Shown one piece after another: positions 29,351 through 64,000 of a stretch of 64,000 bases of DNA; within the stretch, counting starts at the first letter, position 1, and every line of letters starts with the position of its first letter. Source of the stretch: Thiorhodovibrio frisius (GTDB lineage Bacteria > Pseudomonadota > Gammaproteobacteria > Chromatiales > Chromatiaceae); contig NZ_CP121471.1 in assembly GCF_033954835.1 (NCBI RefSeq), positions 372,001 to 436,000 on the forward strand, written 5' to 3'. Position numbers and translations under genes: made by a program. The notes below the pieces were generated by a model. It was not told where the DNA came from. It did no database searches and was given only the letters and a program-made list of their open reading frames with translations.

Positions 29351-29403
29351 GACATTACCGGTCGATTCGCGATTCTGGCAGTCGGCAGAATACAGCGGTC
29401 GGC

Positions 29404-30358: not shown

Positions 30359-33247
30359 TCAAAACCCACCGCCCTCGCTGTAGTAGTCGTGGGCCAGGTT
30401 ATCAAAGCGCGTGTACTGCCCCTGAAAGGCGAGCTTCACGGTGCCGATGGGGCCGTTACGCTGCTTGGCGATGATGATCTCGGCAATGCCCTTGTCGGAG
30501 CTGTCTTCGTTGTAGACCTCGTCGCGATAGATAAAGGCGATCAGGTCGGCGTCCTGCTCGATGGCGCCGGATTCTCTCAGGTCCGACATGACCGGTCGCT
30601 TGTTCGGTCGGCTTTCCAGGCTGCGGTTGAGCTGGGACAGGGCGACCACGGGTACGCTCAGCTCCTTTGCCAGCGACTTGAGTGAGCGGGAGATCAGCGA
30701 GATTTCGGTCGCGCGGTTCTCACCGGCCATCGGTGCCTGCATCAGTTGCAGGTAGTCGAGGACGATCATGCCCAGTTCTTTCTCTTCGCGCTTCAGCTCC
30801 CGTTGCAGGCGCCGCACCCGCGCGCGCACCTCGGTCGGCGACAGACCGCCGGTGTCGTCGATGTGCATGGACACTTGCGACAGCATACTGACCGCCGAGG
30901 TCAGGCGCGGCCAGTCCTCATCGCCGAGCTTGCCGGTGCGTACTCGGTGCTGATCGATCTGCCCGAGCGAGGACATCATGCGCATGGCAAGGGAGTCGCC
31001 GGGCATTTCCATGCTGAAGATGGCGACGCCTTTGCCGGTTTTTATCGCGACATTTTCGGCCATGTTCATGGCGAAGCTGGTGTTGTGCACGCAGATGTCG
31101 TTGGCGATGAAATTGTGGGTATCGGGGATGGTGAGATCGTAGACTTGACGCAACCCAAGGGGCTCGATGGCGACGATAGGGTCCCAGAACAGATCGCTGC
31201 AAGCAAGATCAACTAGCGACTGATCCCCCAAGGCGCAGGCCAGCTTTGCGAGCCGCTTGCGGGGCAGGGCGCGCTTGCCCACATGAATGTTGCTGGTGCC
31301 GATCAATCCCGCCCGCTCTGCGAGATGCGCCCAAGACTCCTTACCCTTCAGTGCTCGCAGCCGCTCCCAGACGCCAACTGGAATCAGGTCGGTGTTGGTC
31401 TGCTGGCGCTTTTGCGCGAGCGCCTCGAGCACGCGCTCGAGGGCGGGCTCTTTCGAAAAGATGCCGATCTCGGTGGCAAAGGTCCGAATCGAGTCGCCAT
31501 CGGTGATATCCAATTGCCAGGCATGGGAGTGGCCCTGTTCGCGGCGAATGCGGCGGTGACGCAGCTTGGCGATGATGCCGAAGCGCAGCAGCAGATGCTG
31601 AATCTGTCGGGCCAGGCGCTCACTGACCGAGGCGTAGCCAAGCTGACATTGTCCGCTGCTCAAGCGCGTCGCCCAGCCATCGGTGGCGAAGAGCCGGTTT
31701 AGAAACAAAGCCAGTTGATCCTTCGGCAGTTGAAAGACGGGCGTGGGAACGAATTTGCCGTGCGCGTCGCGTTCCCAAAGTCCAAGCTCGATGAGCCAGC
31801 GAGTCAAGGCATTGGGACCATTTTTCGCGCCATCCAACCGTGGATTGGGATCCCAGGTAACGCGAATGTCGGCGAAAAAGTCTGTAATGCGGTCGAAAAG
31901 CGCCACACCGGGCATGCTGCGACCTTGAATCCAGTTGCATACGCTGGCCGGGCATGCGCCTGTGGCAAGGGCGAAGGCGCGCTGGGACGATCCAGCCGCG
32001 ACCAATGCGTCCGCGAGCGCTTGGCCAAAGACTCGACGCTGATCCTTGATGCGCGCGTGATCGCCGATCACACAGACCTCGGGAGTTCGGTCGGGGCGTT
32101 GCTTGAGTAATGCGCGTACCCCGCCGAAATCCTGCGCGGCGGAGATAAAGTCCGCTTGAATCGAGGCGTTTTCGTTGATCAGTTTGGGCGTTCGGTTTCT
32201 AAAGCAGCCGTCGCCAATGAGGTAGCCGAGCAGTTTGACCTCGCACTCGCGCATTGCCTGGGTGCCAAAGACCGGCAGGCGGCGTGGGACGCCAATGGTG
32301 TCGCCGACCTTGAGCTCGCCAAGCGGCTTCCAGCCATCCAGCGTTAGAAAGGGATGCGTGGTGGTTGTTTCAACGACGCGGCCGAGCCTTGTGGTCACAC
32401 GGAAGGCGGGCTTGAAGCCGTCATCGACGAATGCGCTCGCCCGCGCAGTCTGGAGTCGCAGCCGTTCGCTGAGTGTCAGCAGTTCGGCCTGGCGTCGGTG
32501 GAACAGGGTTTCAATGGTTTCGACGCGACCGTCTGCCAGCAGGATCTCCGAGTTGGCCTCGAGGCATTTGCCCATTGACGGCCGTCCGGCCACGATAACG
32601 AGATCCCCGGCTTGCAGACCGGAGGTTTTCATGTCGAAGTCGGTAAAGCCGGTCGGGACGCCGGTGATGGGTTCTTCGCGATGGTAGAGTTCGTCGATTT
32701 TGTCCATCGCGGTGACCAGCAGGTTGCGGATCGGCTGGAAGCCTCCGCCGCCGCGAGTGAGTTGCTCGGCGATCTGGAACACCTTGGCCTCGGCCAGGTC
32801 GAGGATTTCGGACTCGCTGCGGCCCTCGGTGGCGAAGGCCAGGTCGGCGATCTCGACCCCGGCACGGGCGAGCTGGCGCAGCACCGAGTTGAAGCGCACG
32901 ATGCGCGCATAGTGCACAGCATTGGCGGCGGAGGCGGTGTTGCGGTCGATCTCGGCGAGATAGGGCAGGCCGCCGATGTCCTCGAGCAGCGAGCGCTTTT
33001 CGAGCGCTTCGGCCAAGGTGACGACATCGAAGGGCTGGTTTTCCTCGGCCAGGATGGCGATGCCGCGAAAGACCAGGCGGTGTTCCTGGCGGTAGAAGTC
33101 GTCTTCGCAGACTTTGTCGGCGATCTGCTCCCAGGTGGCGTTTTCGAGCATCAGGGCGCCGAGCAGGGATTGCTCGGCGTTAATGTTGTGCGGTGGGACG
33201 CGGGCGTCGGCGAGTTCTGGTGGGGCGGTTGGGTCCAAGGACGTCAT
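30359..33247 (-). CDS. dnaB: Replicative DNA helicase DnaB with an intein in the P-loop
   Basis: 962 codons from the ATG at 33247. Residues 1-227 hold the DnaB N-terminal domain (NAEQSLLGALMLENATWEQI) and the first half of the RecA-like core, ending RPSMGK. An intein fills 228-722. The core resumes at TSFAMNMAENVA and continues with MIVLDYLQLMQAPM, ALSQLNRSLESRPNKRP and the C-terminal DYYSEGGGF. After splicing the helicase would be 467 residues, the normal length, with Walker A GRPSMGKTS restored. The last 209 bases are duplicated at 29137. An in-frame ATG at 33289 is less likely. Confidence 0.95.
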   Translation of the reverse strand: MTSLDPTAPPELADARVPPHNINAEQSLLGALMLENATWEQIADKVCEDDFYRQEHRLVFRGIAILAEENQPFDVVTLAEALEKRSLLEDIGGLPYLAEIDRNTASAANAVHYARIVRFNSVLRQLARAGVEIADLAFATEGRSESEILDLAEAKVFQIAEQLTRGGGGFQPIRNLLVTAMDKIDELYHREEPITGVPTGFTDFDMKTSGLQAGDLVIVAGRPSMGKCLEANSEILLADGRVETIETLFHRRQAELLTLSERLRLQTARASAFVDDGFKPAFRVTTRLGRVVETTTTHPFLTLDGWKPLGELKVGDTIGVPRRLPVFGTQAMRECEVKLLGYLIGDGCFRNRTPKLINENASIQADFISAAQDFGGVRALLKQRPDRTPEVCVIGDHARIKDQRRVFGQALADALVAAGSSQRAFALATGACPASVCNWIQGRSMPGVALFDRITDFFADIRVTWDPNPRLDGAKNGPNALTRWLIELGLWERDAHGKFVPTPVFQLPKDQLALFLNRLFATDGWATRLSSGQCQLGYASVSERLARQIQHLLLRFGIIAKLRHRRIRREQGHSHAWQLDITDGDSIRTFATEIGIFSKEPALERVLEALAQKRQQTNTDLIPVGVWERLRALKGKESWAHLAERAGLIGTSNIHVGKRALPRKRLAKLACALGDQSLVDLACSDLFWDPIVAIEPLGLRQVYDLTIPDTHNFIANDICVHNTSFAMNMAENVAIKTGKGVAIFSMEMPGDSLAMRMMSSLGQIDQHRVRTGKLGDEDWPRLTSAVSMLSQVSMHIDDTGGLSPTEVRARVRRLQRELKREEKELGMIVLDYLQLMQAPMAGENRATEISLISRSLKSLAKELSVPVVALSQLNRSLESRPNKRPVMSDLRESGAIEQDADLIAFIYRDEVYNEDSSDKGIAEIIIAKQRNGPIGTVKLAFQGQYTRFDNLAHDYYSEGGGF
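31082..32566 (-). other. DnaB intein with LAGLIDADG homing endonuclease domain (495 residues)
   Basis: The intein begins with Cys (CLEANSEILLADGRVETIET). The N3 splicing motif is TTTHPFLTLDGW, and it ends FIANDICVHN before Thr of the host, so all catalytic residues for protein splicing are present: Cys1, the TxxH histidine, His-Asn and +1 Thr. Between the halves lie GYLIGDGCF and LNRLFATDGWATR, the two LAGLIDADG helices of a DOD-type homing endonuclease. It should splice and could still home. It interrupts the ATP-binding loop between Lys and Thr, so unspliced DnaB would be inactive. Confidence 0.9.
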
Positions 33248-45969: not shown

Positions 45970-46767
45970 TCAGCGCACCAGTAGGAAGGAAAGATTATCC
46001 GGCGCGCCAGCGTCCAGCACCGCATGGAGGTAGCGACCGGCCAGTTCGGGGAGCGATGCCTCTGGGTCGAACAACGCCTCCACCTTGCTCTGGCTCAGGC
46101 TGTCGTGCAAGCCATCGGTGCATAGCAGCCAGGTCGAGCCTTCTGGCCAACGGCCGGTTTGCCAGTGGATGGCAAAATCGTCCTCGGTCTCGTCGGCGCT
46201 GATCATGTGCTCAAGGTCGTGATAGAGATGGCCGACCTCCTCGCCGGGTTGCAACTCGCCGCGCTCGAGCATCGATTGGTAGTAGGTGTGATCGACTGAG
46301 AGCTGTCGCCAATTCCCGTCGGCGGAAATGCAATAAATGCGCGAATCGCCGACATTAAGCGTGCTGAAGTGGCCGTCGCGCCATTGCAGCATCGCCAGCG
46401 TCGTGGCGCTAGCGTGCAGCGCGGGCTGGCGGGACAGCTTGCGACACAAGCGCGGGTGGATGACGCGGCGCAGTGCCCGCGGGCCGATCCAACCGTCCTG
46501 CCAATGCTCGGACCCGTCTTGCTCCGCATCGCGCAAGAGCTCCAGCAAGGCGCGGCTGGCCAGTTGGGGCTTGTAACTGGCGGCAACACCATCGGCCACC
46601 GCGCACAGGCCTGTCTCCGCCTCGAACGCCTCATGGCGCGGAGCCAGGTCGTTTGCCTGCCATACCTGACCGGCGGCCAGCAGCGCATCTTGTTGCTCGC
46701 GAGGGACCAGTCCGCAGTGCTGTAGACTGGCGAGATGCAGCGGACGGGAACTGGCTTGATCGGACAT
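45970..46767 (-). CDS. PP2C-type Ser/Thr protein phosphatase
   Basis: 265 residues with PPM motifs in order: TGLCAVADGVA (metal Asp), ASATTLAMLQWRDG, LNVGDSRIYCIS, WLLCTDGLHDSLS (metal Asp) and APDNLSFLLV. DGVA replaces the common DGMGG. It would remove phosphate from Ser/Thr or act on regulatory partners. It is the last intact gene of the leftward operon starting at 56.6 kb. No Ser/Thr kinase gene is seen in the window, so a partner would have to lie elsewhere. Confidence 0.85.
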   Translation of the reverse strand: MSDQASSRPLHLASLQHCGLVPREQQDALLAAGQVWQANDLAPRHEAFEAETGLCAVADGVAASYKPQLASRALLELLRDAEQDGSEHWQDGWIGPRALRRVIHPRLCRKLSRQPALHASATTLAMLQWRDGHFSTLNVGDSRIYCISADGNWRQLSVDHTYYQSMLERGELQPGEEVGHLYHDLEHMISADETEDDFAIHWQTGRWPEGSTWLLCTDGLHDSLSQSKVEALFDPEASLPELAGRYLHAVLDAGAPDNLSFLLVR

Positions 46768-46788
46768 GGTGATCCTTTTAGGTGTTAG

Positions 46789-47433
46789 TCATGGCGACTG
46801 AGTGGAAATCGGCTTCTGCTCTTGCTCCACAAGGGGAAAGCTGCGCTTGCAGATCGGTTGGCTCGCGTCCGACTTCTCGATGCCCAGCAGACTGTTCAAT
46901 CGGTCGCGACGGTCACGGAGCCTTTCGAGATCAATATCTTCGGTTCGCGACCGTATCAAAGCAGCACCTGAGCAACCTGGTTGCGTCCCACCGCCATGGA
47001 CGCAAATCCAATCCCCCGGTCTCAGTTGATTGATCCACCCGAGCATTTTCTCGAACACATGATCCTGCCAAAGTTCGTAACGGGTTGAATACAAGGTGGG
47101 CGGTTCGCAATGCATGCAGAAATAGTGGCCATCGGCGCTGATTTCCTCGAAAAGATCAAAGTCAGCAATCATGTCGAGGAGCCTGCCCTGGGCGTCATGG
47201 GCGTCGACGACAGTCCTGTCGCGGATATCCATTGTCGCCAGTCCATTGGCTTGAAGCTGAAAGGACAAGTCCGGGGCCAAGCCGGAAAAGCGCAGGATGA
47301 GACGCTGCTCGGATGAGTCGGCCATCCAGGGCGGATAGCGGAAGCGCCGATAATTGTTCTGGACCCAAGCGCCGTATGCCTGGTGAATGAATGGAGTGCC
47401 TCGGGATACCCTGTTTTTGGGTAAGATCGCCAT
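46789..47433 (-). CDS. Unknown protein in the AAA/FtsZ-like operon
   Basis: 214 residues from the ATG at 47433; a TTG at 47472 would overlap the preceding gene. Not recognised. The middle holds HYFCMHCEPPTLYSTRYELW and the later part QLRPGDWICVHGGGTQPGCS, with several Cys and His residues that could bind a metal. It ends 22 bases before the PP2C start. No membrane helix. Confidence 0.6.
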   Translation of the reverse strand: MAILPKNRVSRGTPFIHQAYGAWVQNNYRRFRYPPWMADSSEQRLILRFSGLAPDLSFQLQANGLATMDIRDRTVVDAHDAQGRLLDMIADFDLFEEISADGHYFCMHCEPPTLYSTRYELWQDHVFEKMLGWINQLRPGDWICVHGGGTQPGCSGAALIRSRTEDIDLERLRDRRDRLNSLLGIEKSDASQPICKRSFPLVEQEQKPISTQSP

Positions 47434-47468
47434 CCGCTTAATCCCGAATTGGCTCACCACGAAAACAC

Positions 47469-47989
47469 TCAATCCTCGGCCAGCGCCGCGGCCAGGACGC
47501 GTCGTCCAGTGCGCAGGCCATGCTGCCAGTGGGTGACCGCAAAGCCCAAGGCATCCTCCGGCAGACGGGACATCAGATCATCCCTCAGGCGGCTGAAGTC
47601 ACCGAGATTGGCCTCGGCGTAGCTAATAGACAGAAAGGCCATCGCGCCTTTCGGGTGCTTGGGTTGGAGTTTTTTCCACAAACGCTCGACTGCCTGGCGT
47701 TCACGGTCGGGATGATTCCACAGAGTCGCGGCGGCGCGGACATAAAACCCGGCCGTTAACACGCGATGCAAATTGACCAGGCATCCAGCACCGACGGCTT
47801 TGTACCAGATTGGACGAAAAGACCATCGACCGCGAAATTGCGTCGATCATGCTGACGCAAGGCCGCGAGCAGCGGCTCGGTCGCGCGTCCCAAGCCGACG
47901 CAGAGTGAAAACACGCGCTCTGAATTTCCGCCGGCGGGTCCCGAGGGTTGATCAGCCAGAAGGGGGTCAAAATCGGGTGTGTGAGTCAT
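47469..47989 (-). pseudogene. Third FtsZ-like gene, internally deleted and frameshifted
   Basis: From the ATG at 47989 the frame reads ERVFSLCVGLGRATEPLLAA, resembling the first strand and loop of the FtsZ-like proteins at 57012 and 62063 (CCIGLGEGAEPFIRTL). It ends at 47756. An overlapping frame shifted by one (47771-47469) reads AAATLWNHPDRERQAVERLW, then MAFLSISYAEANLGDFSRLR and ends RRVLAAALAED, matching their C-terminal domain. About 120 central residues are absent. It lacks the twin-arginine leader. Either a deletion remnant or two split peptides. Confidence 0.55.
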
Positions 47990-53843: not shown

Positions 53844-56084
53844 TTAGACCCTTTCCGGCACCCCCGAGTCTTTCAACCGACACTCCGCGATCAACCGTCG
53901 CAGAAAGTCCTCTGGTGCCAATCGCTCGCCGAGCAGTCGTTGCTGGCGACACACATTGGCAAAATCCCCTGGCGTCAAATGATCCAGCCGCTCCAAATGC
54001 CGCGCCAGATTCATCGGCACCACCGCGACTGCATCCCCCAGCGCTTCGCGGGCAAACAATCCAATCCGCTGCTCCGGCTTCAGCGCCCGGAAATGCAGCT
54101 TGAAGTCAAACCGTCGCAGCGCCGCCGCATCCAGTCCCCTCATCAAATTGGTCGCGGCAATGAAGATGCCGGGAAAGCGTTCCATTTGCTGCAAGAGTTC
54201 ATTCACTTGCGTGCGCTCCCAGCTGTGTTGCGCCTGACGGCGCTCGGCGAGAAAGCTGTCGACCTCATCCAACAGCAGCACTGAGCGCTCGGCATCGAGG
54301 CTGACAAACAGCTCGGCCAGGTTCTGCTCGGTCTCGCCCACATAAGGCGAGATCAGATCCGAGGCCTGCCGTGCGATCAGTTCCCGATCCAACGCCTCGG
54401 CCAGTACCTCGGCAAAAGCGGTCTTGCCGGTACCGGGCGGGCCATAGAAACACAACCGACCCGTGCCCTCGCGCTCCAGCGCCCGCACCAGCGCATTGGG
54501 CTGAATGCCGCCGGCCAAATTCAAATAGCCCACATCGAAATCCGTCGCCTGTTCCCGGCGCCGGGGCGCCGGCGCGCCATGCAGCAACCGGCGCATGGCT
54601 GCAATGTTGCGTCGCACCGTCGCCTCCTTGGGGGCGTCCGGGCGCAAGTCCAGCAGGCGCCGCGCCGCGCCCAGAGTCGCCGGGGTCAGCTGGTCGTCCG
54701 CCGCCAGCTCCTCCAGCAGGGTTGGCGGCAGACCGAGATCGCCGAGATGGCGTTCGGCCATCTGCAAGCGCACCGAGCGTGGCGGGGTGACGAAGGCCAC
54801 CGGCAGCAAAAACCGCCGCTGAAAGGCCGCATCCATGCCGCGGGTCTGGTTGCTGATCCAGATCGCCGGCACCGGGTTTTCCTCCAGAATGCGGTTCATC
54901 CAGCCCTTCTGCTCGCCGGTCGGGCCGGCGCCACCGAAGAAGGCGAAAAAGCTGTCCTGCTGGGTGATGACATCCTCGACCTCATCGAAAATAATCACCG
55001 CGTCGCCGCGCTTGGCCAGCAGGCGTTGCGCGACCAGATAGGCTGAAAGGCGCCCGTCACGATCCAGTCCGTCCTCGTCGCCGTCGCGATCCTTCTCGGT
55101 GCTAGCGACCTGGTAGGCCGTGAGTCCGCAGGCAGCGACCAGGGCGCGGGCCAGCTCGGTCTTGCCTGTGCCGGGCGGGCCATAAAAGAGCGCATTGACG
55201 CCCGCGACGCCGGAGCGTGCGGCGGCGGCCAGGGTCTCCTGCACCTCCAGCACGCGCTCGCGCAGGTGCGGGAAGGCCGCCGGCGTCCAGTCCCCCGCCG
55301 GGGCCGGCTCGACCAGGCGGGCGAGCAGAGCGGCTTCGTCCTTGGGTTCGGCCTCGAACAGCTCGCTGAGCAGATCGCTCGGGCGCACCAGATCCTCGAT
55401 GTCCGGATGATTTTGCCGAGACTCCAGCAACCCGAGCTGGCGCAGCGGCGCGCTCTTGCGCAGGGCGCGGCGCAGGGCTGGCTCGTCGAGGCGCAGCATG
55501 GCCGCGACGCCATGGCGCGCATCGGCGCGCACCAGGCGGGTGCGCGTGTTGCCGGCTTCGTTCACCAGCTCCACGAAGGCGCCACAGGAGTTGCGCAGAT
55601 CGAGGTACTCCAGAACGCGTTCGGCGGTGGCGTCCAGTCCCAGGGATTGCGCGAGGAGACGGGCGAGTGGAGAGACGCTGCCATTGCCGTCGGCCTGGTC
55701 CAACTGTTTGAGCATGCCGTGGGGCAGATGGCGATAGAAGGTGCGCAGTGGCCCTTCGCTGGAAAACAGGGGTGGTTTCCTGCCGGACGGGGGCGGATTG
55801 CCCTGATCATCGGCCTCCAAGCGCTTGATGGCGACATCCAAGCTCAGGATATCAGTGTCATCATCGTCGCTTTCCCGTGCCAGAGAGACTAGGTGGTCGC
55901 GCACCCAGGACGGCAGCAGCGGCCCGGTCAGCTCCCACAGAGCGCGCAGAAAATCGCGGTCGTCCAGGCGCTCGCGCATCCGCTTGTCGCTGCACAGCAG
56001 TCCGAGCGCGAAGCGGGCCAGGCGCAGTTCCCGGGTTGGAACAGCGTTGAGATCCGAGCGCCAGCCATAAAGGTTGTCAGTCAT
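53844..56084 (-). CDS. Double-AAA ATPase of the leftward operon
   Basis: 746 residues. After an N-terminal helical region of about 270 residues come two AAA modules. The first has NALFYGPPGTGKTELARALV (Walker A) and VIIFDEVEDVIT (Walker B). The second has RLCFYGPPGTGKTAFAEVLA, VLLLDEVDSFLAERR, IFIAATNLMRGLDAAALRRF (sensor and Arg region) and FRALKPEQRIGLF. The second module resembles classical FtsH/CDC48-like AAA domains. It probably forms a ring that remodels proteins. It is the large enzyme of the operon and its second gene. Confidence 0.88.
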   Translation of the reverse strand: MTDNLYGWRSDLNAVPTRELRLARFALGLLCSDKRMRERLDDRDFLRALWELTGPLLPSWVRDHLVSLARESDDDDTDILSLDVAIKRLEADDQGNPPPSGRKPPLFSSEGPLRTFYRHLPHGMLKQLDQADGNGSVSPLARLLAQSLGLDATAERVLEYLDLRNSCGAFVELVNEAGNTRTRLVRADARHGVAAMLRLDEPALRRALRKSAPLRQLGLLESRQNHPDIEDLVRPSDLLSELFEAEPKDEAALLARLVEPAPAGDWTPAAFPHLRERVLEVQETLAAAARSGVAGVNALFYGPPGTGKTELARALVAACGLTAYQVASTEKDRDGDEDGLDRDGRLSAYLVAQRLLAKRGDAVIIFDEVEDVITQQDSFFAFFGGAGPTGEQKGWMNRILEENPVPAIWISNQTRGMDAAFQRRFLLPVAFVTPPRSVRLQMAERHLGDLGLPPTLLEELAADDQLTPATLGAARRLLDLRPDAPKEATVRRNIAAMRRLLHGAPAPRRREQATDFDVGYLNLAGGIQPNALVRALEREGTGRLCFYGPPGTGKTAFAEVLAEALDRELIARQASDLISPYVGETEQNLAELFVSLDAERSVLLLDEVDSFLAERRQAQHSWERTQVNELLQQMERFPGIFIAATNLMRGLDAAALRRFDFKLHFRALKPEQRIGLFAREALGDAVAVVPMNLARHLERLDHLTPGDFANVCRQQRLLGERLAPEDFLRRLIAECRLKDSGVPERV

Positions 56085-56174: not shown

Positions 56175-56600
56175 TCAGTCCGGTTGCCAGGGCTGAAAGC
56201 GGCGGCTGTCGTAATACCAGTTCAAAAAGTCACCGCGATGCGGACCGTCATCGACAAAGAGCCCGAGCACCAGATCCAGCGGCTCGCGGAAATAAGGGCT
56301 GCCGGCATCGCGCTCGTTGTCGAACACCGGTTGCTCCAGCACCTCCAGCACCACCGCGGGCTGTTTGGCGCGCGGGTAGCGCTTGTTCATGAATCCCGGC
56401 TTCCACACCACCAGATCGCCGGGCGCGAATCTGTGCCGGCGCTGCCAGTGTGCGAAGCGCTCGCGCAGCGCCATGGCGGGATCGCCGGTCAGGTCGTCCA
56501 GCGGCTCGTCGGTGAGCAACAGATCGTTCGAGCCCTCCTCGTCGAAGCCGATGCGCGTCAGCCAGTCGCGGGCGCTGAGCCGGTCGTTGTCTCTGGGCAT
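56175..56600 (-). CDS. Small unknown protein, first gene of the leftward operon
   Basis: 141 residues from the ATG at 56600, which follows GGAGGAG. An in-frame ATG at 56864 would add unlike sequence. The middle reads RFAPGDLVVWKPGFMNKRYP and KQPAVVLEVLEQPV, an SH3- or barrel-like beta pattern, and it ends NWYYDSRRFQPW. Family not recognised. It is transcribed from the shared-type promoter at 56853-56884 and probably supports the AAA ATPase encoded next. Confidence 0.6.
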   Translation of the reverse strand: MPRDNDRLSARDWLTRIGFDEEGSNDLLLTDEPLDDLTGDPAMALRERFAHWQRRHRFAPGDLVVWKPGFMNKRYPRAKQPAVVLEVLEQPVFDNERDAGSPYFREPLDLVLGLFVDDGPHRGDFLNWYYDSRRFQPWQPD

Positions 56601-56852: not shown

Positions 56853-56884
56853 GTTATAGCGCACTGATGCGACTTTCCTTGTCG
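56853..56884 (-). promoter_or_regulatory. Shared-type promoter of the leftward operon
   Basis: The inverted repeat CGAC-N7-GTCG occupies 56870-56884. Reading leftward, exactly 11 bases follow and then TATAAC (56858-56853), a good -10. This is the layout of the four rightward promoters at 56925, 58003, 61977 and 63063. No consensus -35 hexamer is present, so the repeat probably binds a regulator. Confidence 0.7.
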
Positions 56885-56924
56885 TATCGGGGCGTCATCG
56901 TGACGTTTTGCCGCGAGGTCGATG

Positions 56925-56956
56925 CGACAGAAAGAGTCGTGATGGATGGCTAGACT
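56925..56956 (+). promoter_or_regulatory. Shared-type promoter of the first FtsZ-like gene
   Basis: CGAC-N7-GTCG at 56925-56939, 11 bases, then TAGACT at 56951-56956. It lies 61 bases (hexamer start to ATG) before the FtsZ-like gene and back to back with the leftward copy; the two repeats are 55 bases apart. Confidence 0.75.
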
Positions 56957-57011
56957 GATGTTGAATCGCCTGGCACCCTCGCCAGGGACCGAGACATCGG
57001 AGGGCCGCACA

Positions 57012-57935
57012 ATGAATCGACGTCAATGGCTGCAAGCACTGGGTGCGGGTCTGCTCTGGCCGCTGGGTTCTAATGCACGGGGTGCATCCAGCCTGTCGCC
57101 GCCGCCGCGTCTGCTGGAGCCGCGTCCGGCAGTGGACAGCGCCGGCATGACCGGCGCCGACTGGGGCGCGCTGTTCGAGCCCGCGCGCTCCTGCTGTATT
57201 GGCCTTGGCGAGGGTGCGGAACCCTTCATACGGACGCTGAAGACCCGCACCGATATCGACCAAGTCGCGCTGATGGCGCACCACGCCAGCGAGCCACAGG
57301 CCGTCACGGACTGGCTGCGGCGCCAGTCGGCGCCGAGCGACTACATGGTGGTGGTCATCGACGCCAGCGACCCGCGGGCGGTGACCGACCTGCCCCTGCA
57401 CGCAACCCGGTGGCGACCGCCGGACTGCTGCTATTGCTTCGCGGTACTGATCAATCGCCCCACCCGTCTCGCCGCCATGCTCTGGAATGCCGAGGATCGC
57501 GCGGCATTGGACAACGCCTTTGACGCCCTCATCGAGCCGGCGCCCAGCACCAGTGCCTCCCAACGGTTGGCGTTACACATGCTGATCGACGGCACCCTGC
57601 TGCTATCCCGCACCATCATCGGTTACGACCCTGGCCATATTCGCGAATGCCTGAGCGCCGCGAAGCGACTGCGCACGACCGCGACGCTGTGGAACCGCCC
57701 TGATCAGCGCGAGCGCGCTCTGGAGCGGTTGCGACAACGGGGCCTGGCGCATCCAACCGGCGACATGCTCGCCTTCGTGCATGCGCCGAAGGGCATGGGC
57801 ATTATCGAATTCGCCGACCTGATGCACGAGCTGCGCAGGCGCCTGCCCTTGGTCGAGGACGCCAGGCTGGTGGAGACGGCGATCTTGCATGACGACTGGC
57901 CGCGCGACCGGCGGGTCTTGGGCGTGACAGGTTGA
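57012..57935 (+). CDS. FtsZ-like protein with twin-arginine-type leader, copy 1
   Basis: 307 residues from the ATG at 57012, preceded by GGAGGG. It starts MNRRQWLQALGAGLLWPLGS, a twin-arginine motif (RRxWLQ), short hydrophobic run and a possible cut near NARGAS. The rest follows the FtsZ order: a first strand and loop (CCIGLGEGAEPF), MVVVIDASDPRAVTDL where FtsZ has GGGTGTG, FAVLINRPTRLAAML, then MLIDGTLLLSRTIIGYDPGH (compare GI..LI.RPG..N.DFADV) and DMLAFVHAPKGMGIIEF ending RRVLGVTG. The tubulin GTP signature is lost, so GTP hydrolysis is unlikely. Export is suggested, not shown. Fold call is mine, by motif order. Confidence 0.7.
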   Translation: MNRRQWLQALGAGLLWPLGSNARGASSLSPPPRLLEPRPAVDSAGMTGADWGALFEPARSCCIGLGEGAEPFIRTLKTRTDIDQVALMAHHASEPQAVTDWLRRQSAPSDYMVVVIDASDPRAVTDLPLHATRWRPPDCCYCFAVLINRPTRLAAMLWNAEDRAALDNAFDALIEPAPSTSASQRLALHMLIDGTLLLSRTIIGYDPGHIRECLSAAKRLRTTATLWNRPDQRERALERLRQRGLAHPTGDMLAFVHAPKGMGIIEFADLMHELRRRLPLVEDARLVETAILHDDWPRDRRVLGVTG

Positions 57936-58002
57936 TTTTGCAAGGATCTGCTGGTCAGACGGCGATGGATCGCCGAGAGATCATCGGCGGGCGGGCAGGA
58001 TG

Positions 58003-58034
58003 CGACAGAGGCTGTCGTGTTGATCCGCTAGACT
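58003..58034 (+). promoter_or_regulatory. Shared-type promoter of the DnaB-like gene
   Basis: CGAC-N7-GTCG at 58003-58017, here a fully symmetric CGACAG-AGG-CTGTCG, followed by 11 bases and TAGACT at 58029-58034, 47 bases before the ATG. Confidence 0.75.
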
Positions 58035-58075
58035 GCCTTCTATCGGTCAATCATTGCCTTGGAGAAACGGATCAC

Positions 58076-58948
58076 ATGCAACGAAGAATCTTTTTGCAGG
58101 CTGCCGGCATTGGCGCCGCGCTGACCACGCAAGCGGGGCGGCTGTTTGCCATCGACGAGGCCGCATCAGCCGCGGCACAACCCTCAAGCAGGGCTGTCGC
58201 CTCGGGCATTGCCGCGCTGGACGACCTGACCGGAGGATTTCGCCCCTCGGAATTGACCCTGATAGCAGGGCGCCCCGCGACGGGCAAGACCGACTTGGCG
58301 CAGCGAATCGCGCAGCTGGTTGCCATCAACGGATCACGCCCGGTGATCTACTTCAGCCACGAGCTTCCGCGTGACGCGCTGCTTGAGCGGATGCGGGCGT
58401 CAAATGCCAATGTCGGCTTGCATCGGACAGGCGCGGATCCGCTGAGTGTGGTGGAGCGAGAGCGGCTTCGTTCGGCCGGACGACAGCTCGCGCAAGCTCC
58501 GCTCCACATCGATGACACAGCCGCCCTTTCGCCGAAGGAGATCCTTGAACGCGCGCGGCGGTTCAAAACCGACAAGGGCGACCTGGGATTGGTCATTGTC
58601 GACTATCTGCAGCTGATGCAGAGTGCCGTCCCCGTGCAGTATCGAGCCGATGCGTTGTCGGCCATTGCTGCCGACCTCAAAAGGCTGGCGACCGAACTTG
58701 ATGCACCGATGATCCTGCTCGCCATGCTGCATCGCGACCTTCTGTATCGTGCAAACAAACGTCCACTGTTGGCTGACTTGAACCGCTCCGGCGCGATTGA
58801 GCCGCACGCGGACCAGGTTCTGCTGATCGACCGCGATGAACGCTACCACCCAGACCCGGCGCAAGATCCTGGGGTCATCGAGATTCAGGTCGCCAAGAAC
58901 CGGCGCGGCCCGACGGGTACTGTCCGCCTGCCGGTCTTGCGGGCCTGA
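58076..58948 (+). CDS. DnaB-like RecA-fold ATPase with twin-arginine-type leader
   Basis: 290 residues from the ATG at 58076 after GGAGAAA. It starts MQRRIFLQAAGIGAAL, a close match to the RRxFLQ twin-arginine motif. Then comes only the DnaB C-terminal core: Walker A AGRPATGKTDLA, LVIVDYLQLMQS, RANKRPLLADLNRSGAIEPH and VAKNRRGPTGTVRLPV, each lining up with the chromosomal DnaB. The DnaB N-terminal domain is absent. The sensor LSQLNR of DnaB is LAMLHR here, losing the Gln. ATP binding seems kept, but unwinding as a normal DnaB ring is doubtful. rtcB follows after 15 bases. Confidence 0.85.
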   Translation: MQRRIFLQAAGIGAALTTQAGRLFAIDEAASAAAQPSSRAVASGIAALDDLTGGFRPSELTLIAGRPATGKTDLAQRIAQLVAINGSRPVIYFSHELPRDALLERMRASNANVGLHRTGADPLSVVERERLRSAGRQLAQAPLHIDDTAALSPKEILERARRFKTDKGDLGLVIVDYLQLMQSAVPVQYRADALSAIAADLKRLATELDAPMILLAMLHRDLLYRANKRPLLADLNRSGAIEPHADQVLLIDRDERYHPDPAQDPGVIEIQVAKNRRGPTGTVRLPVLRA

Positions 58949-58963
58949 GTCATCGAGGCTGAA

Positions 58964-60196
58964 ATGAGGGAACCAAGCGAAACTTCAGGCCCGGCAGCCG
59001 CGAGCGTTCACCTCATCGCCTCCAAGGACACTTGGATCGAAGGCGGGGCGGTGCGTCAACTGGAGCAAACAGCGCGGCTGCCCGGCATGCGCGCCGCCGT
59101 CGGTCTGCCCGATCTGCATCCCGGCACGGGCTATCCCATCGGCGCGGCCTTTCTGTCCGAGCTGGTGTACCCGGCCTTGGTCGGCAATGACATCGGCTGC
59201 GGCATGGGGCTGTGGCAGACCGATCAAGCCATGCGCAAATTCAAATCCGAGCGCGCCGCCGAGCGCCTGAGCGGACTCGAAGGCCCCTGGGACGGCGATC
59301 TCGACGGCTGGCGTGCCGAACAGGGACTCGCGCCCAGCGCCTTCGACCAGGCGCTCGGCACCATCGGCGGCGGCAATCATTTCGCCGAGATTCAGGCTGT
59401 GGCCGAGGTGCTGGACGCAACCGCCTTCGCCGCGCTGAACCTCGATCCCGAGCGGCTCTTGCTCCTGGTCCACAGCGGCTCGCGCGGGCTCGGCGAATCC
59501 GTGCTGCGCGCCGTCATCGATCAACACGGTCACCAGGGCTTGGCGCCCGCTGCCACCGCCGCCCGCGACTACCTCCAGGCGCATGATCACGCCGTCCACT
59601 GGGCCGAGGCCAATCGTCGCCTGATCGCCACCCGCCTGCTCAATGCCTTGGGCATGGATGCCGAGCGCCTGCTCGATGTTTGGCACAATCTGGTGCAGCC
59701 CATCGACTGGGCCGGCGAAACCCTGTGGCTGCATCGCAAGGGCGCCGCCCCCGCCGATCGCGGCCCGGTGGTCATCCCCGGCTCGCGCGGCACCCTGTCC
59801 TATCTGGTCGAGCCGCTGCTCCAATCCCGATTGCCATTCGCCCCCGCGACCGACCCCAGCCTGCGCTCGCTCGCCCACGGCGCCGGGCGCAAATGGAAGC
59901 GCGGCGAAGCCCGCCCGCGTCTCAGCACCCTCCAGCGCCCAGAAGACTTGCGCAAGACCGCCCTCGGCGGCCAGGTGATCTGCGATGACAAGGAACTGCT
60001 CTACGACGAAGCGCCCGAAGCCTACAAAGCCGTCGATCGCGTCGTCGCCGATCTGGTCGACGCCGGCCTGTGCCGCGTCATCGCCACCCTGCGCCCGGTG
60101 CTGACCTACAAGCTGCGCCGCGCCGCCGGCCTGCGCGACCGCCAGCGGGCACACAAGCCCCATGGCGCGCGCAAGCCCAAGCGGGACCGCCGATGA
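58964..60196 (+). CDS. rtcB: RtcB-family RNA ligase (PrfH-linked type)
   Basis: 410 residues. VGLPDLHPGTGYPIGAAF, VGNDIGCGMGLW, GTIGGGNHFAEIQ, VHSGSRGLGE and SLAHGAGRKWKR provide the metal sites and the guanylated His of RtcB. RtcB joins 2',3'-cyclic phosphate to 5'-OH RNA ends with GTP and manganese. The prfH gene overlaps its stop (ATGA), the known RtcB2-PrfH module that mends ribosomes cut in the 16S decoding centre. It lies in an operon with the DnaB-like gene, which is unusual. Confidence 0.93.
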   Translation: MREPSETSGPAAASVHLIASKDTWIEGGAVRQLEQTARLPGMRAAVGLPDLHPGTGYPIGAAFLSELVYPALVGNDIGCGMGLWQTDQAMRKFKSERAAERLSGLEGPWDGDLDGWRAEQGLAPSAFDQALGTIGGGNHFAEIQAVAEVLDATAFAALNLDPERLLLLVHSGSRGLGESVLRAVIDQHGHQGLAPAATAARDYLQAHDHAVHWAEANRRLIATRLLNALGMDAERLLDVWHNLVQPIDWAGETLWLHRKGAAPADRGPVVIPGSRGTLSYLVEPLLQSRLPFAPATDPSLRSLAHGAGRKWKRGEARPRLSTLQRPEDLRKTALGGQVICDDKELLYDEAPEAYKAVDRVVADLVDAGLCRVIATLRPVLTYKLRRAAGLRDRQRAHKPHGARKPKRDRR

Positions 60197-60828
60197 GCAC
60201 GCCCACTCTGTGGCTGCAAATCTCCGCCGGCCGCTGCCCAGAGGAATGCGAATGGGTGGTCGGCCAACTCGCCCCGCGCCTGAGCGCCGAACTGCAAGCC
60301 CGCGGTCTCGCGGCGGAGGAAATCGACCGCGCGCCTGGCCGCCATGCAGGCGATGCCCGTTCCGTTCTGCTGCGCGTCAGCGGTGGCGATGTGCACCCCC
60401 AGGTCGCTGACTGGCTCGGCACCATCCAGTGGATCGGCGCCAGCCCCTATCGCCCAAACCACAAGCGCAAAAACTGGTTCGTCAGCATTGCCGCCTTTTC
60501 CGAACCCATGGCCTATACTTGGAACGAGCACGAGCTGCGGATTGAAACGCTGCGCGCCTCCGGCCCCGGCGGACAGCACGTCAACCAAACCGAAAGCGCG
60601 GTGCGCGTCACCCATCGACCGACCGGACTCAGCACCCTGGCCCAGGAAGAACGCTCCCAGCACATGAACAAACGACTGGCGCTGGCTCGTCTCGCCGCGC
60701 TGCTGGCGGAAAGGGAAGACGAAACGCGCCGAGCGGCTGAAGATCAGCGCTGGCGGCAGCATACCCGGCTGGAGCGTGGGAATGCGGTGCGGGTTTATCG
60801 TGGAGCGGACTTTCGACGCGAAAGATGA
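60193..60828 (+). CDS. prfH: Peptide chain release factor-like protein PrfH
   Basis: 211 residues from the ATG at 60193, overlapping the rtcB stop by four bases. It has the release-factor catalytic loop RASGPGGQHVNQTES (GGQ), then VRVTHRPTGLSTLAQEERSQ. The codon-recognition domain of RF1/RF2 is missing, as is typical for PrfH. PrfH is thought to free nascent chains from damaged ribosomes so that RtcB can reseal the RNA. Confidence 0.93.
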   Translation: MSTPTLWLQISAGRCPEECEWVVGQLAPRLSAELQARGLAAEEIDRAPGRHAGDARSVLLRVSGGDVHPQVADWLGTIQWIGASPYRPNHKRKNWFVSIAAFSEPMAYTWNEHELRIETLRASGPGGQHVNQTESAVRVTHRPTGLSTLAQEERSQHMNKRLALARLAALLAEREDETRRAAEDQRWRQHTRLERGNAVRVYRGADFRRER

Positions 60829-60903
60829 GAATTGTCTGCTCGGCGCGTTAGCAACTCGTCTAGCATGAACGCAAACGCTTGACGGCAAAATTGGACGAAA
60901 ACC

Positions 60904-61035
60904 ATGGGACATGTATTCACCCAACTTGACCTCAGCAATCCCCGCAAGCCAGACCTTGCTTCCCTCAGCGTCAAGGCGCTCGCGGATACCGGCGCGCCGA
61001 TGCTCTGCATTCCGGAGCATGTCGCTTTGACATAG
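60904..61035 (+). pseudogene. N-terminal scrap of a clan AA aspartic protease
   Basis: A 43-residue frame starting MGHVFTQLDLSNPRKPDLAS and containing VKALADTGAPMLCIPEHVAL, the D-T-G active-site region of retropepsin-like bacterial proteases. Intact members continue for another 80 or so residues; here a TAG comes at once after VALT. It sits just before a ParE-type pair. Confidence 0.6.
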
Positions 61036-61059
61036 ATCATAAAAGCCTGAGGTAAAAAC

Positions 61060-61320
61060 ATGCGAGAACTGATTATCGACATGACCGACCAGCAACACCA
61101 AGCGCTGAGCGCCATGGCGGCTCGGGAGGGAAAGACAGTGAAAGAATTCGCGCTTGAAAAACTGCTTGCCAAAAAAAACGCAAAACCAGAAGCATCAGCC
61201 GAGATAAGAGCACTGCTTGCAGAGCGAGTCGCCCAAGCAAAGCGCGGAGACGTTGTTCATGGCAGTATTAGCGAGATCGAGGAGCAAGCATTACGTATTG
61301 AACAAGTGGCATCATTGTAA
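61060..61320 (+). CDS. Antitoxin-like protein of a ParE pair
   Basis: 86 residues: MRELIIDMTDQQHQALSAMA and GKTVKEFALEKLL are a ribbon-helix-helix-type start, and the tail VAQAKRGDVVHGSISEIEEQ is the usual toxin-binding end of ParD/StbD-like antitoxins. The toxin gene follows 11 bases later. The ATG is preceded by GAGG. Confidence 0.75.
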   Translation: MRELIIDMTDQQHQALSAMAAREGKTVKEFALEKLLAKKNAKPEASAEIRALLAERVAQAKRGDVVHGSISEIEEQALRIEQVASL

Positions 61321-61331
61321 GTAACCTTTTC

Positions 61332-61643
61332 ATGACCCAACCCTACATTCTCACCACTGGTGCGGCGTCCGATCTTGAAAAAATTGTCCGCTATACTGAA
61401 CGAGAATGGGGAGCAGCGCGGCGACGTTCTTATATCCAACAACTCGAGAATGTGGCAAGCGAACTCGCATCGGGGGTTGGTTCTTTTCGACAACGCGATG
61501 ACCTCTATCCAAACGTTCGGGTCCGAAAAGCAGGGCACCATTTTATTTTTTGCCTGCCACAAACGGACGGCCCAGCCCTTATTCTTGCTGTCCTTCACGA
61601 ACGCATGGACATTATTGCTCGTTTGAATGAAAGGTTGGATTAA
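61332..61643 (+). CDS. ParE/RelE-family toxin
   Basis: 103 residues: ILTTGAASDLEKIVRYTERE, WGAARRRSYIQQLE, YPNVRVRKAGHHFIFCLPQ and LAVLHERMDIIARLNERL are the standard ParE strands and helices. ParE toxins poison DNA gyrase, RelE members cut mRNA; this sequence is closer to ParE. Together with the antitoxin it forms an intact pair between the prfH operon and the second FtsZ-like gene. Confidence 0.85.
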   Translation: MTQPYILTTGAASDLEKIVRYTEREWGAARRRSYIQQLENVASELASGVGSFRQRDDLYPNVRVRKAGHHFIFCLPQTDGPALILAVLHERMDIIARLNERLD

Positions 61644-61900
61644 AATTTCCACGGCCATTGCCTCGGACCTCTCGACTGTAACAGGGTCCATTGCCGAGGA
61701 AAGTGCTGGTGGCATCGCGAGTTTCGCGGACTTATACCCAATAAGTACAGGTTTTTGGCTCTTGGATAAATCTAAGCAACTGATAATATAAAAAAGTTTT
61801 TACATGAAAAACCGAAAACCGCTGTAGAAGCGGTATAATTCTTTTCTACGTTCCCTTAACCGGGAATATCAATTCGAGCCTGGACCCTTATTTGGCGATC
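61644..61900. other. Intergenic stretch, partly AT-rich
   Basis: No gene recognised. It contains a small hairpin, ACCGC-TGTAGAA-GCGGT at 61818-61834, immediately before TATAAT, and near 61871-61890 a short motif related to repeats at 4919 and 8136. Confidence 0.4.
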
Positions 61901-61932
61901 AATATAGCGGAGACATGCGACGAAGCCTGTCG
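61901..61932 (-). promoter_or_regulatory. Shared-type promoter facing left, apparently without a gene to serve
   Basis: CGAC-N7-GTCG at 61918-61932. Leftward, exactly 11 bases follow, then TATATT (61906-61901). This mirrors the leftward promoter at 56853-56884, but the genes to the left (ParE pair) point the other way. It is probably a duplicate of the 56.9 kb intergenic region. Confidence 0.55.
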
Positions 61933-61976
61933 TATTGGCGGTTGATCGGGCTTTTTTCTGGCTGAAAACTGGGATA

Positions 61977-62008
61977 CGACAGAGTGCGTCGCCAGACATG
62001 GCTAGACT
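61977..62008 (+). promoter_or_regulatory. Shared-type promoter of the second FtsZ-like gene
   Basis: CGAC-N7-GTCG at 61977-61991, 11 bases, TAGACT at 62003-62008, 60 bases before the ATG (hexamer start to ATG). Confidence 0.75.
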
Positions 62009-62062
62009 GGTGGATAGTCACCTGGCACCGTCTTCGGGACCAAAGCAGCGGAGGGACGCGGG

Positions 62063-62995
62063 ATGAATCGCCGTCAATGGCTAAAAGCACTCGGGGCTGG
62101 CCTGCTCTGGCCGATTGGTGGTGGTCCCGCACGGGCAGCGAGCAACAAGTTCCCAACCCCGTTGCGGCCGTTGGAGCCGCGCCCAACGGCGACTCCTTTC
62201 GAAGCCAACAACCGCGTAAACCTGGCGGCCCTGCTGGAGCCTTCGCGATCCTGCTGTATCGGCCTTGGCACGGGTGCGAGACACTTTATCCAAACCCTGA
62301 AGCGTCGCACCGATATCGACCAAGTCGAGCTGATGGCGCAGTCGGCACTGGAGCCTCGGGCTGTTACCGATTGGCTGCACGCCCAGGTCGCTCCGGGCGA
62401 CTATGTCGTGGTGGTCATTGACGCCAGTGATCCGCGCGCCGTCGCTGACTTGGCCCGGCATGCCCCAGATTGGCGACCGCCGGAATGCGTCTACTGCGTC
62501 GCGGTGGTGATCAATCAGCCAGCGCACCTCGCCTCAGTTCCCTGGAACGCAACGGAACAAGCCGCGTTGGACCGCGCCTTTGATGCCGTTATCGAACCGG
62601 CGCCCGGCATGGCTGCCGCCCAGCGGCTGGCTATCCAACTGCTTATCGACGGCACGCTGCTGTTATCCCGCACCCCCATCGGTTACGACCCAGGCGACAT
62701 TCGCGAGTGTCTGAAGCGCACGAAACAATTTCGCACCGCTGCCACAGTGTGGCATCGCCCCGATCAACGCGAGCGCGCGTTGCAGCGGTTGCGACAGCGC
62801 GGACTGGCGCATCCCCCTGGAGACTTGCTCGCCTTCGTGCATGCCGGCAAGGGGCTGAGCATCCAGGAATTCTTCGACCTGATGGGTGAGCTGGAGATGC
62901 GCTTGCCAGTGCGTGAGGAAGCCGTTCTGGTCGCGAGCGGCTTCTTGCATGAGGACTGGCCGCGCGACCGGCGGGTGCTGGGGGTGACGGGCTGA
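62063..62995 (+). CDS. FtsZ-like protein with twin-arginine-type leader, copy 2
   Basis: 310 residues, a close paralogue of the 57012 product along its whole length. It starts MNRRQWLKALGAGLLWPIGG with a better cut site (PARAAS). It has CCIGLGTGARHFIQTLKRRT, YVVVVIDASDPRAVADLARH in place of the GGGTGTG loop, and DLLAFVHAGKGLSIQEFFDL with RRVLGVTG at the end, matching the last domain of FtsZ (compare VNITAG..L...E and V.VVATG). GTPase activity is unlikely. The DnaA-like gene follows, as the DnaB-like gene follows copy 1. Confidence 0.7.
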   Translation: MNRRQWLKALGAGLLWPIGGGPARAASNKFPTPLRPLEPRPTATPFEANNRVNLAALLEPSRSCCIGLGTGARHFIQTLKRRTDIDQVELMAQSALEPRAVTDWLHAQVAPGDYVVVVIDASDPRAVADLARHAPDWRPPECVYCVAVVINQPAHLASVPWNATEQAALDRAFDAVIEPAPGMAAAQRLAIQLLIDGTLLLSRTPIGYDPGDIRECLKRTKQFRTAATVWHRPDQRERALQRLRQRGLAHPPGDLLAFVHAGKGLSIQEFFDLMGELEMRLPVREEAVLVASGFLHEDWPRDRRVLGVTG

Positions 62996-63062
62996 TCCTG
63001 CGAGGGGTTGCCGGTCAGGCGATGATGGACCGCCAAAGGACCATCGACTGGCGCGCGACATG

Positions 63063-63094
63063 CGACTGATTCTGTCGTGTTGGCGCGCTAGACT
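63063..63094 (+). promoter_or_regulatory. Shared-type promoter of the DnaA-like gene
   Basis: CGAC-N7-GTCG at 63063-63077, 11 bases, TAGACT at 63089-63094, 47 bases before the ATG at 63136. The upstream 60 bases also resemble those ahead of the DnaB-like promoter. Confidence 0.75.
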
Positions 63095-63135
63095 GGCTCT
63101 CATGCGTTGATCGTCGGTTGGGGAGATGACAGAAA

Positions 63136-64000
63136 ATGATGAACAGGCGCCATTGCTTGCAACGCTTGGGTACTGCTGGTCTCGGCAGCGCTTGGCCGGT
63201 AATTGCGGGCATGCCAGCGCCAGAGCGGCTCGCGACCTGGGTCGACGGCAAGGCTGCCGCGGAGCGCCACTCAGAGCGGGCTCATTCGTTAGCGCCGGAG
63301 GACGCTTTCCACCTGGCCAAGTTGATTCCCGAGTTCCGCTTCGAGACCTTTGTCCGAGGCCAGTCCAATGCCGCCGCCTGGGAGGCGTGCCAGCGCATCG
63401 CGGGTGATCCCGCATCTGCCCATGGCGCGCTCTACCTGCAAGGCGGGCAGGGACTCGGCAAATCGCATCTGATGAATGCCATTGGTTATCAAGTCCTTGC
63501 GCAAAATCCCCGCGCAAAGGTCCGTTTTGTCCACTCCGAGCGCTTCGCCTTTGAGCTCAGACAACTGCGCGAAGCTGGTCAGCCCGGGCAAATCGAAACC
63601 GGTCTGGATCAGTATCGGAACCTCGATTTGCTGTTGTTTGACGATCCAGGATTCCTGAGCAATAAGCCGAGCGCGCAATCTGTCTTTGCTCATGTCTTTC
63701 AAACGCTGCTTGAGCGCGGGAAGACCCTCGTCTTTTCCGACGAGCGATTCATGGCCATGGTTCCGGGGATCAATCACCGCTTGCGCGATCTGTTTTCCCA
63801 ATCAGTCGAGATTTCGGTGGCGGCACCCGATCTGGAAACCCGGCTGGCCATCCTCCGCCACCGAGCGGCTTGGTGGAAGATCGAGCTACCCGAGGGCGTG
63901 GCCATGGATCTGGCGACATCCTGCCCGACCAACGTCAGGGAGCTGGAAGGAGCCCTGCGACGCCTGATGGCGGAGTCGCGGTACGTTGGTATTCCGATTG
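63136..64000 (+). CDS. DnaA-like AAA+ ATPase with twin-arginine-type leader, 3' end outside the window
   Basis: 288 residues are visible. It starts MMNRRHCLQRLGTAGLGSAW, a weaker twin-arginine-like leader. A DnaA domain III follows: FETFVRGQSNAAAWEACQRI, Walker A LQGGQGLGKSHLMNAIGYQV, the DnaA HSERF motif, Walker B LLLFDDPGFLS, box VII-like LRDLFSQSVEISVAAPDLET, and sensor 2 NVRELEGALRRL. DnaA domain I is missing, replaced by the leader. The window ends before it can be seen whether the DNA-binding domain IV is present. ATP binding looks intact. Confidence 0.85.
   Translation, partial: MMNRRHCLQRLGTAGLGSAWPVIAGMPAPERLATWVDGKAAAERHSERAHSLAPEDAFHLAKLIPEFRFETFVRGQSNAAAWEACQRIAGDPASAHGALYLQGGQGLGKSHLMNAIGYQVLAQNPRAKVRFVHSERFAFELRQLREAGQPGQIETGLDQYRNLDLLLFDDPGFLSNKPSAQSVFAHVFQTLLERGKTLVFSDERFMAMVPGINHRLRDLFSQSVEISVAAPDLETRLAILRHRAAWWKIELPEGVAMDLATSCPTNVRELEGALRRLMAESRYVGIPI

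Follow-up and report, generated by a model that had tools for sequence, protein, structure and literature searches.

We analyzed a 64,000-nucleotide stretch of the Thiorhodovibrio frisius genome (here called the window, positions 372001 to 436000 of a single 5.42-Mb contig), in which genes resembling those for FtsZ, DnaB and DnaA carry a shared N-terminal leader of twin-arginine translocation (Tat) type. The genes lie between 53.8 and 64 kb. Leftward run a gene for a two-domain, IetA-like AAA+ ATPase (53844..56084, minus strand) and one for its small conserved partner of 141 aa, HYP (56175..56600, minus strand), the core of the module. Rightward, on the plus strand, follow FtsZ-like 1 (57012..57935, 307 aa), a DnaB-like core (58076..58948, 290 aa), the RNA ligase gene rtcB (58964..60196), the adjacent peptide release factor homologue prfH (60193..60828), a parD-parE pair, FtsZ-like 2 (62063..62995, 310 aa, 68% identical to protein 1) and a DnaA-like core (63139..64000, the gene ending 62 bases past the window). 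Past the window end stand a broken rtcB and then an intact prfH, and with this order the four leadered genes form two cassettes of FtsZ-like, X, rtcB and prfH, with X occupied by DnaB in the first and by DnaA in the second. The 251-bp stretch upstream of the DnaB-like gene, comprising the end of the FtsZ-like gene and a promoter, is 74% identical to that upstream of the DnaA-like gene; as the upstream DNA is homologous and the genes that follow are unrelated, X is a slot. An earlier sequence-only reading had described four consecutive rightward genes. Their direction stands, but they are not consecutive, as rtcB, prfH and parD-parE intervene.

All four look-alikes begin with M-[NQ]-RR and an uncharged, moderately hydrophobic run (MNRRQWLQALGAGLLWPLG at 57012, MQRRIFLQAAGIGAAL at 58076, MNRRQWLKALGAGLLWPIG at 62063 and MNRRHCLQRLGTAGLGSAW at 63139), as the sequence-only reading had noticed, and a GGAG-type stretch lies just 5' of each leader ATG. 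In seven leaders listed, the uncharged run spans 12 to 21 residues with a best 12-mer mean of 1.1 to 1.9 (Kyte-Doolittle), and an AxA-like site is present by a loose test. A home-made Tat rule, used in place of SignalP or TatP and loose in its AxA part, was passed by 20 of 35 FtsZ-family open reading frames (ORFs) longer than 200 aa, several misses having RR and one charge too many. None of 29 canonical DnaA/DnaB ORFs passed; among 985 background ORFs (150 aa or longer, the leadered ORFs and spurious ones included) 39 did so, which puts the leaders above chance. The Tat model TIGR01409 was listed for one of eight leadered proteins scanned, at 13.3 bits against a cut-off of 16.7, the matches listed leaving out the weakest match of one protein. 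Across subfamilies the leaders have little in common beyond RR and hydrophobicity. TatC is encoded in the genome, and by sequence the leader is of Tat type.

Beyond the window, a leader of M-x-RR type (or NRRR) is found on 27 of 32 FtsZ-family ORFs from this genome and other genera, a set of 39 ORFs less four of 200 aa or shorter and three fragments or fused ORFs. A twin-arginine leader also occurs on three DnaB-like proteins and one DnaA-like protein. The sequence-only reading had held that relatives in which the leader is missing and the start codon lies downstream would speak against a common tag, and such cases exist in part. Five of the 32 ORFs have none, leaderless members being those of G019, G141, G084, G085 and another locus of G120, and the FtsZ-like of G168 (L246:2520-3596, minus strand) has the same leader shape with MKHR in place of M-x-RR. 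One leadered ftsZ, on plasmid pTs485 (L255:11091-12182, minus strand), is annotated as cell division protein FtsZ from a start downstream of the leader, so that the leader is hidden in the database entry. The ratio of nonsynonymous to synonymous polymorphism (pN/pS) for leader and rest of protein is 0.48 and 0.43, 0.47 and 0.38, and 0.60 and 0.55 in three groups, and 0.08 and 0.37 in two true FtsZ proteins (27 leader codons); it is below 1 for leader and body in all four. Because the leader values are close to those of the rest of the protein, the leader is very likely translated and constrained.

Each leadered gene also has its own copy of one promoter type, as had been proposed. The window holds six sites of the operator [AG]CGAC-N7-GTCG[CT], each lying no more than 150 nt upstream of one of the four leadered starts; 60 first-order Markov simulations averaged 0.23 sites and never exceeded 2, a contrast flattered by the motif having been read off these very sites. 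The looser TGCGAC-N4-8-GTCG was observed six times where 1.24 were expected, and one of 100 shuffles reached six. Operator plus N8-GCTAGACT matches exactly upstream of FtsZ-like 1 (56924..56956), the DnaB-like gene (58002..58034), FtsZ-like 2 (61976..62008) and the DnaA-like gene (63062..63094), all on the plus strand; scanning for the sigma-70 consensus yielded no promoter for the leadered genes on their coding strand. The two distal operators face the opposite way, towards the HYP-AAA+ pair where the pair is present, with GCTATAAC 8 nt beyond the first (56869..56885) and GCTATATT 8 nt beyond the second, upstream of FtsZ-like 2 (61917..61933).

The exact composite promoter occurs five times in this genome, always ahead of a leadered gene, at the four genes and at a broken FtsZ-like copy at 2.25 Mb, once in G001, at a leadered FtsZ-like gene, and not in G002. 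Only exact matches were used, because a reversed control found as many two-mismatch sites as the pattern itself. Another exact form, looser at both ends, lies in G120 near rtcB-prfH (L235; proximity only). In 92 loci (1.41 Mb), chosen because they hold genes of the system, there are 53 distinct operator sites, 27 near a labelled system gene and 26 not; the 27 lie near FtsZ-family genes (15), HYP (11) and others, some sites being counted twice. That every small-protein gene carries the operator was considered and rejected: of 49 upstream regions, each 260 nt long, 6 contain it. The look-alike set appears to be under common control. WYL-type regulators were seen, by eye or by annotation, near several loci, and one of them was confirmed. 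WYL proteins have been reported to control phage defense systems (PMC9122601, PMC9122588), and a WYL regulator may bind the operator.

The resemblance to FtsZ, DnaB and DnaA proposed for the four proteins is borne out. For the FtsZ-likes it emerges from a 26-sequence profile, whose best matches in the PDB are FtsZ (5.9e-9, C-terminal domain) and on which the assignment to FtsZ rests; the FtsZ-likes scanned gave no Pfam or NCBIfam match to FtsZ. Class-wide the profile has matches in 307 of 369 genomes, and those listed are mostly the same C-terminal stretch of FtsZ-sized ORFs. None of the 26 FtsZ-likes has the GTP signature GGGTGTG. The T7-loop aspartates are kept, the first in 25 and the second in 24 of the 26; both are present in 18 of 18 ordinary FtsZ proteins, which were chosen for GGGTGTG. 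The tail peptide of FtsZ, DIP[AF]FL, which binds cytoplasmic partners, is kept in five ORFs, three of them leadered.

The DnaB-like protein of the window consists of the C-terminal helicase domain (PF03796 DnaB_C, 2.3e-66) and matches TIGR00665 from position 173, with 248.6 bits against a cut-off of 385.25; like the other DnaB-likes, it lacks the N-terminal domain. Leadered DnaB cores recur in G197 and G120, of two other genera, about 8 kb from an AAA+ gene in both and directly upstream of rtcB in G197. At the position of the arginine finger, QRN in 26 of 26 canonical DnaB proteins, they have TPN (G197) and THH (G120), and in the G120 protein the Walker lysine and a glutamate are gone as well. 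The DnaA-like protein (AAA+ domain, PF00308 Bac_DnaA, 7.7e-35) keeps Walker A and B, with RLRDLFS at the site of RL[RK]SRFG (6 of 6 canonical DnaA proteins), which amounts to loss of the arginine finger, and its gene stops before the DNA-binding domain IV. It scores 215.9 bits with the DnaA model (cut-off 343.9) and 64 bits with the Hda model. Among the matches listed from the 210 genomes of the family Chromatiaceae, the leadered DnaA core is found in this genome only. Most of the look-alike cores are predicted from the losses listed to be catalytically crippled.

The leader is not confined to such proteins. A similar one precedes an FtsZ with intact GGGTGTG in G167 and G170 (plasmid pTs485), the G167 protein scoring 350 bits with TIGR00065 (cut-off 295). 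In a tree these two cluster with four ordinary FtsZ proteins, apart from the FtsZ-likes, the separating branch having a support of 100/100. The leader as a label on this tree needs four changes, three of them forced by well-supported branches, gains and losses being indistinguishable. Since the leader sits on genuine FtsZ of two relatives and on DnaB cores of two other genera, it has probably been attached more than once.

Family counts refer to 210 Chromatiaceae genomes in 61 genera. FtsZ-likes occur in 26 genomes and 11 genera, HYP in 38 genomes and 13 genera, and PrfH, at an E value of 1e-30, in 17 genomes and 10 genera; leadered FtsZ-family proteins and DnaB cores recur across genera. An AAA+ gene lies within 6 kb of HYP in 41 of the 49 HYP stretches fetched. 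The AAA+ protein of the window (PF00004, 2.9e-40) has IetA as its best PADLOC model (4.9e-38), and the NCBIfam model IteA_antiphage (2.6e-33) scores below its cut-off. RtcB (PF01139, 2.3e-67) and PrfH (PF00472, 1.7e-27; its pTs485 relative is annotated prfH) have no leader. This gene content would place the look-alike set in an island of RtcB-PrfH and an IetA-like AAA+ protein. In G040, HYP, AAA+ and a leadered FtsZ-like form one run without rtcB, and FtsZ-likes adjoin PP2C genes in several loci, the PP2C assignment being confirmed in two.

Outside the family, among the matches listed from a class-wide search, a leaderless FtsZ-like remnant lies 5' of rtcB-prfH in G277; the other listed matches resemble ordinary FtsZ (18 inspected). 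Among plasmids, one record holds an FtsZ-like and three the small protein, the best being plasmids of Candidatus Thiodictyon syntrophicum. In viral contigs, pattern scans, which did not extend to the phage record collection, turned up nothing related to the small protein or the FtsZ-likes. In G001 (L012:16351-17760, minus strand), rtcB is preceded in the same frame by an apparent remnant, judged by eye, of a DnaB-like core, a hint that this slot has lost its occupant. Three genes, one of them for an SNF2-type helicase, form a set (L061:1658-7588, plus strand; L093 and L094, about 3.5 to 9.5 kb, minus strand) that was seen near the leadered DnaB core in L061 and beside leaderless FtsZ-likes in L093 and L094, and is possibly another defense system.

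Further features were noticed in the same genome. Between the two cassettes lies the toxin-antitoxin pair parD-parE (61060-61643, plus strand; PF09386, 1.8e-29, and PF05016, 9.3e-15). A remnant of a further FtsZ-like gene (47469..47920, minus strand) stands near a PP2C phosphatase gene (45970-46767); with an unknown gene, these make up another locus of this family in the window, now in decay (45970-47920, minus strand). The third FtsZ-like copy, at 2.25 Mb, is interrupted, and its middle part is missing. In the host's own dnaB (window 29176-32662, minus strand) the DnaB_C match is split into two parts about 1.5 kb apart in one open frame, resembling an intein near the P-loop, and about 1 kb downstream there is one more partial DnaB_C match.

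Host FtsZ, DnaA and DnaB form head-to-tail NTPase assemblies, and in FtsZ filaments, DnaA helices and DnaB rings the nucleoside triphosphate (NTP) site is completed by a residue of the neighboring subunit. Most losses in the look-alikes hit one side of this site, the nucleotide side in the FtsZ-likes and the trans-acting arginine in the DnaA-like and two of the three DnaB-likes. Because one side of a two-subunit site is removed, we read the look-alikes as one-faced subunits. We tentatively favor a reading, short of calling it probable, in which a set under one operator addresses mostly crippled look-alikes of FtsZ, DnaB and DnaA to the inner membrane, where they would act on host assemblies. 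The Tat-type leader would bring them to the inner membrane as part of a defense and RNA-repair island, and they would act in the cytoplasm, at the membrane. A one-faced subunit would join or bind the host assembly and stop it as a chain terminator; under attack, look-alikes would cap the host's FtsZ, DnaA and DnaB or take their place. In this way the start of replication, the progress of forks and cell division would be held up during ribosome repair by RtcB and PrfH. Besides the one-sided losses, this reading is favored by the signs of co-regulation, by DnaB and DnaA taking the same position behind an FtsZ-like gene, by the start and constraint of the leader and by the retained FtsZ tail peptide.

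Several observations weigh against this reading. The leadered gene is optional, lying directly upstream of rtcB or prfH in 8 of 22 prfH rows, a broken copy included, and the idea that the leader tracks rtcB-prfH everywhere was rejected on this count. Likewise, an FtsZ- or DnaB-type look-alike was found in 10 of 49 HYP stretches by the seed search, or 11 with L204, many of the stretches ending at contig ends. The window's DnaB-like retains the motifs inspected, arginine included, in comparison with 26 canonical DnaB proteins, and FtsZ-like 1 has H at the second T7 aspartate. The FtsZ-likes are strongly diverged, so that binding to host FtsZ is doubtful, and an AlphaFold prediction of FtsZ-like 1 from a three-sequence input reached a mean predicted local distance difference test score (pLDDT) of 33. 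Finally, from a canonical Tat leader one would expect export and not retention. The sequence-only reading had proposed a dedicated set of division and replication folds repurposed under a common tag, and exported or tethered by it. The shared promoter and tag uphold the dedicated set; as to export, TIGR01409 was listed for one of eight leadered proteins, below its cut-off, and the FtsZ tail peptide for cytoplasmic partners persists in three leadered ORFs. That reading had not noted the RtcB-PrfH and IetA-like island, the crippled cores or the recurring cassettes.

The nearest rival holds that the look-alikes are decoys or sensor baits, imitating host targets of phage inhibitors and toxins, with the leader holding the bait at the membrane and the AAA+/small-protein pair sensing binding, or the attacker simply being soaked up. 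We regard it as doubtful. It fits a slot that takes different essential targets, as well as the defense-type neighbors (the IetA-like AAA+ protein, WYL regulators, and GmrSD-type and PP2C genes in several loci), and there is precedent both for inactive division domains as conflict-system effectors (PMC7159879) and for CapRel sensing an FtsZ-bound phage protein (PMC13423816). Yet no pairing to a killing effector was observed, and a bait would not require the specific keeping of the T7-loop aspartates that the FtsZ-likes display. True export ranks third and seems unlikely: the look-alikes would cross to the periplasm in folded form, either by themselves or with a bound partner in tow, and so dispose of a cytoplasmic toxin. 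The leader features, the AxA-like sites and the presence of TatC are as this would predict, but the periplasm holds no NTP, leaving NTPase cores without substrate there, the Tat model is listed below cut-off for one of eight leadered proteins, and the FtsZ tail peptide for cytoplasmic partners is still present in three of the leadered ORFs. Export of an untagged partner by hitchhiking through Tat has been described (PMC10924467) and lends the idea a precedent.

The leader might instead be a docking peptide, similar to a Tat signal, for the AAA+ or the small protein; the protein so bound would then remodel the tagged look-alikes. In the genus, the operator is common to the promoters of the AAA+ pair and the leadered genes, and G040 runs the small protein, AAA+ and a leadered FtsZ-like together. 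The central region of the leader is hydrophobic and its sequence little conserved between subfamilies, as in signal peptides, and look-alikes accompany the small protein in only the 10 or 11 of 49 stretches noted above, with the same proviso about contig ends; docking is thus quite improbable. Least credible, and very improbable, is that these are decaying duplicates without a present role, or that a wrong start codon turns a noncoding stretch into a seeming leader. The interrupted copy at 2.25 Mb and the FtsZ-like remnants recall decay, and the downstream start of one annotated ftsZ recalls the second error. Set against them are pN/pS below 1 in leader and body of four groups, GGAG-type stretches and promoters positioned for the leader start, and the occurrence of leaders on unrelated cores.

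Mostly damaged, tagged copies beside ribosome-repair genes point to a cell-cycle brake of a new type or to a decoy against attack. In a broader form, which we offer guardedly as one possibility, bacteria would keep a slot with exchangeable content, joining a Tat-type leader to a crippled version of whichever hub protein is attacked (FtsZ, DnaA or DnaB) under one operator, and serving either as a reversible membrane brake during ribosome repair or as bait that carries the attacker out via Tat. The core proteins of replication and division are regarded as confined to the cytoplasm, and a family of tagged, largely disabled versions of three of them, apparently under joint control beside ribosome-repair genes, would depart from that. 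If true, the proposal would mean a new tie of translation damage to the cell cycle, or a guard on the usual phage targets, and would provide ready-made one-faced subunits for FtsZ, DnaA and DnaB. It also raises a directly testable question, namely, why a DnaA should carry a Tat leader.

Several known systems resemble the island in part. Hda, a regulator with a DnaA AAA+ core, lacks a DNA-binding domain and begins with a short peptide, features that the DnaA-like of the window shares; the latter differs in scoring 216 bits with DnaA and 64 with Hda, in being leadered and in the lost arginine finger. IetAS consists of an AAA+ protein and a subtilisin-like protease. The AAA+ domain of the window is nearest to the IetA models, but the protein is longer, has two AAA domains and falls below the NCBIfam cut-off, and its usual partner is a protein of 140 aa. 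Within the literature searched, which lacks most subscription journals and preprints, no paper joins a Tat signal peptide with DnaA, DnaB and FtsZ together, and combinations of FtsZ-like, twin-arginine and RtcB gave no paper on the subject, judged by title.

The RtcB2-PrfH operon, which repairs and rescues ribosomes cut by colicin E3 (PMC9223846), has the same rtcB followed by an overlapping prfH. What the window adds is leadered FtsZ-, DnaB- or DnaA-like genes upstream and the small-protein/AAA+ pair alongside; the words FtsZ, DnaB and DnaA are absent from the main texts of PMC9223846 and of the 2006 operon paper (PMC1586002). Division NTPases of MinD and FtsK types, predicted to be inactive, occur as parts of NTP-dependent conflict systems (PMC7159879), whose main text lacks the words twin-arginine, signal peptide, RtcB and Chromatiaceae, and CapRel-Ebc senses the phage protein Gp0.4 bound to FtsZ (PMC13423816). 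In the text consulted, neither source describes such a tag, DnaA or DnaB members, or a shared operator. With the conflict systems the window has inactive division domains in common, those there being MinD, FtsK and rare FtsZ domains. With CapRel-Ebc it shares FtsZ as the point at which phage attack would be sensed, the difference being that CapRel-Ebc uses the host's own FtsZ and not a tagged look-alike.

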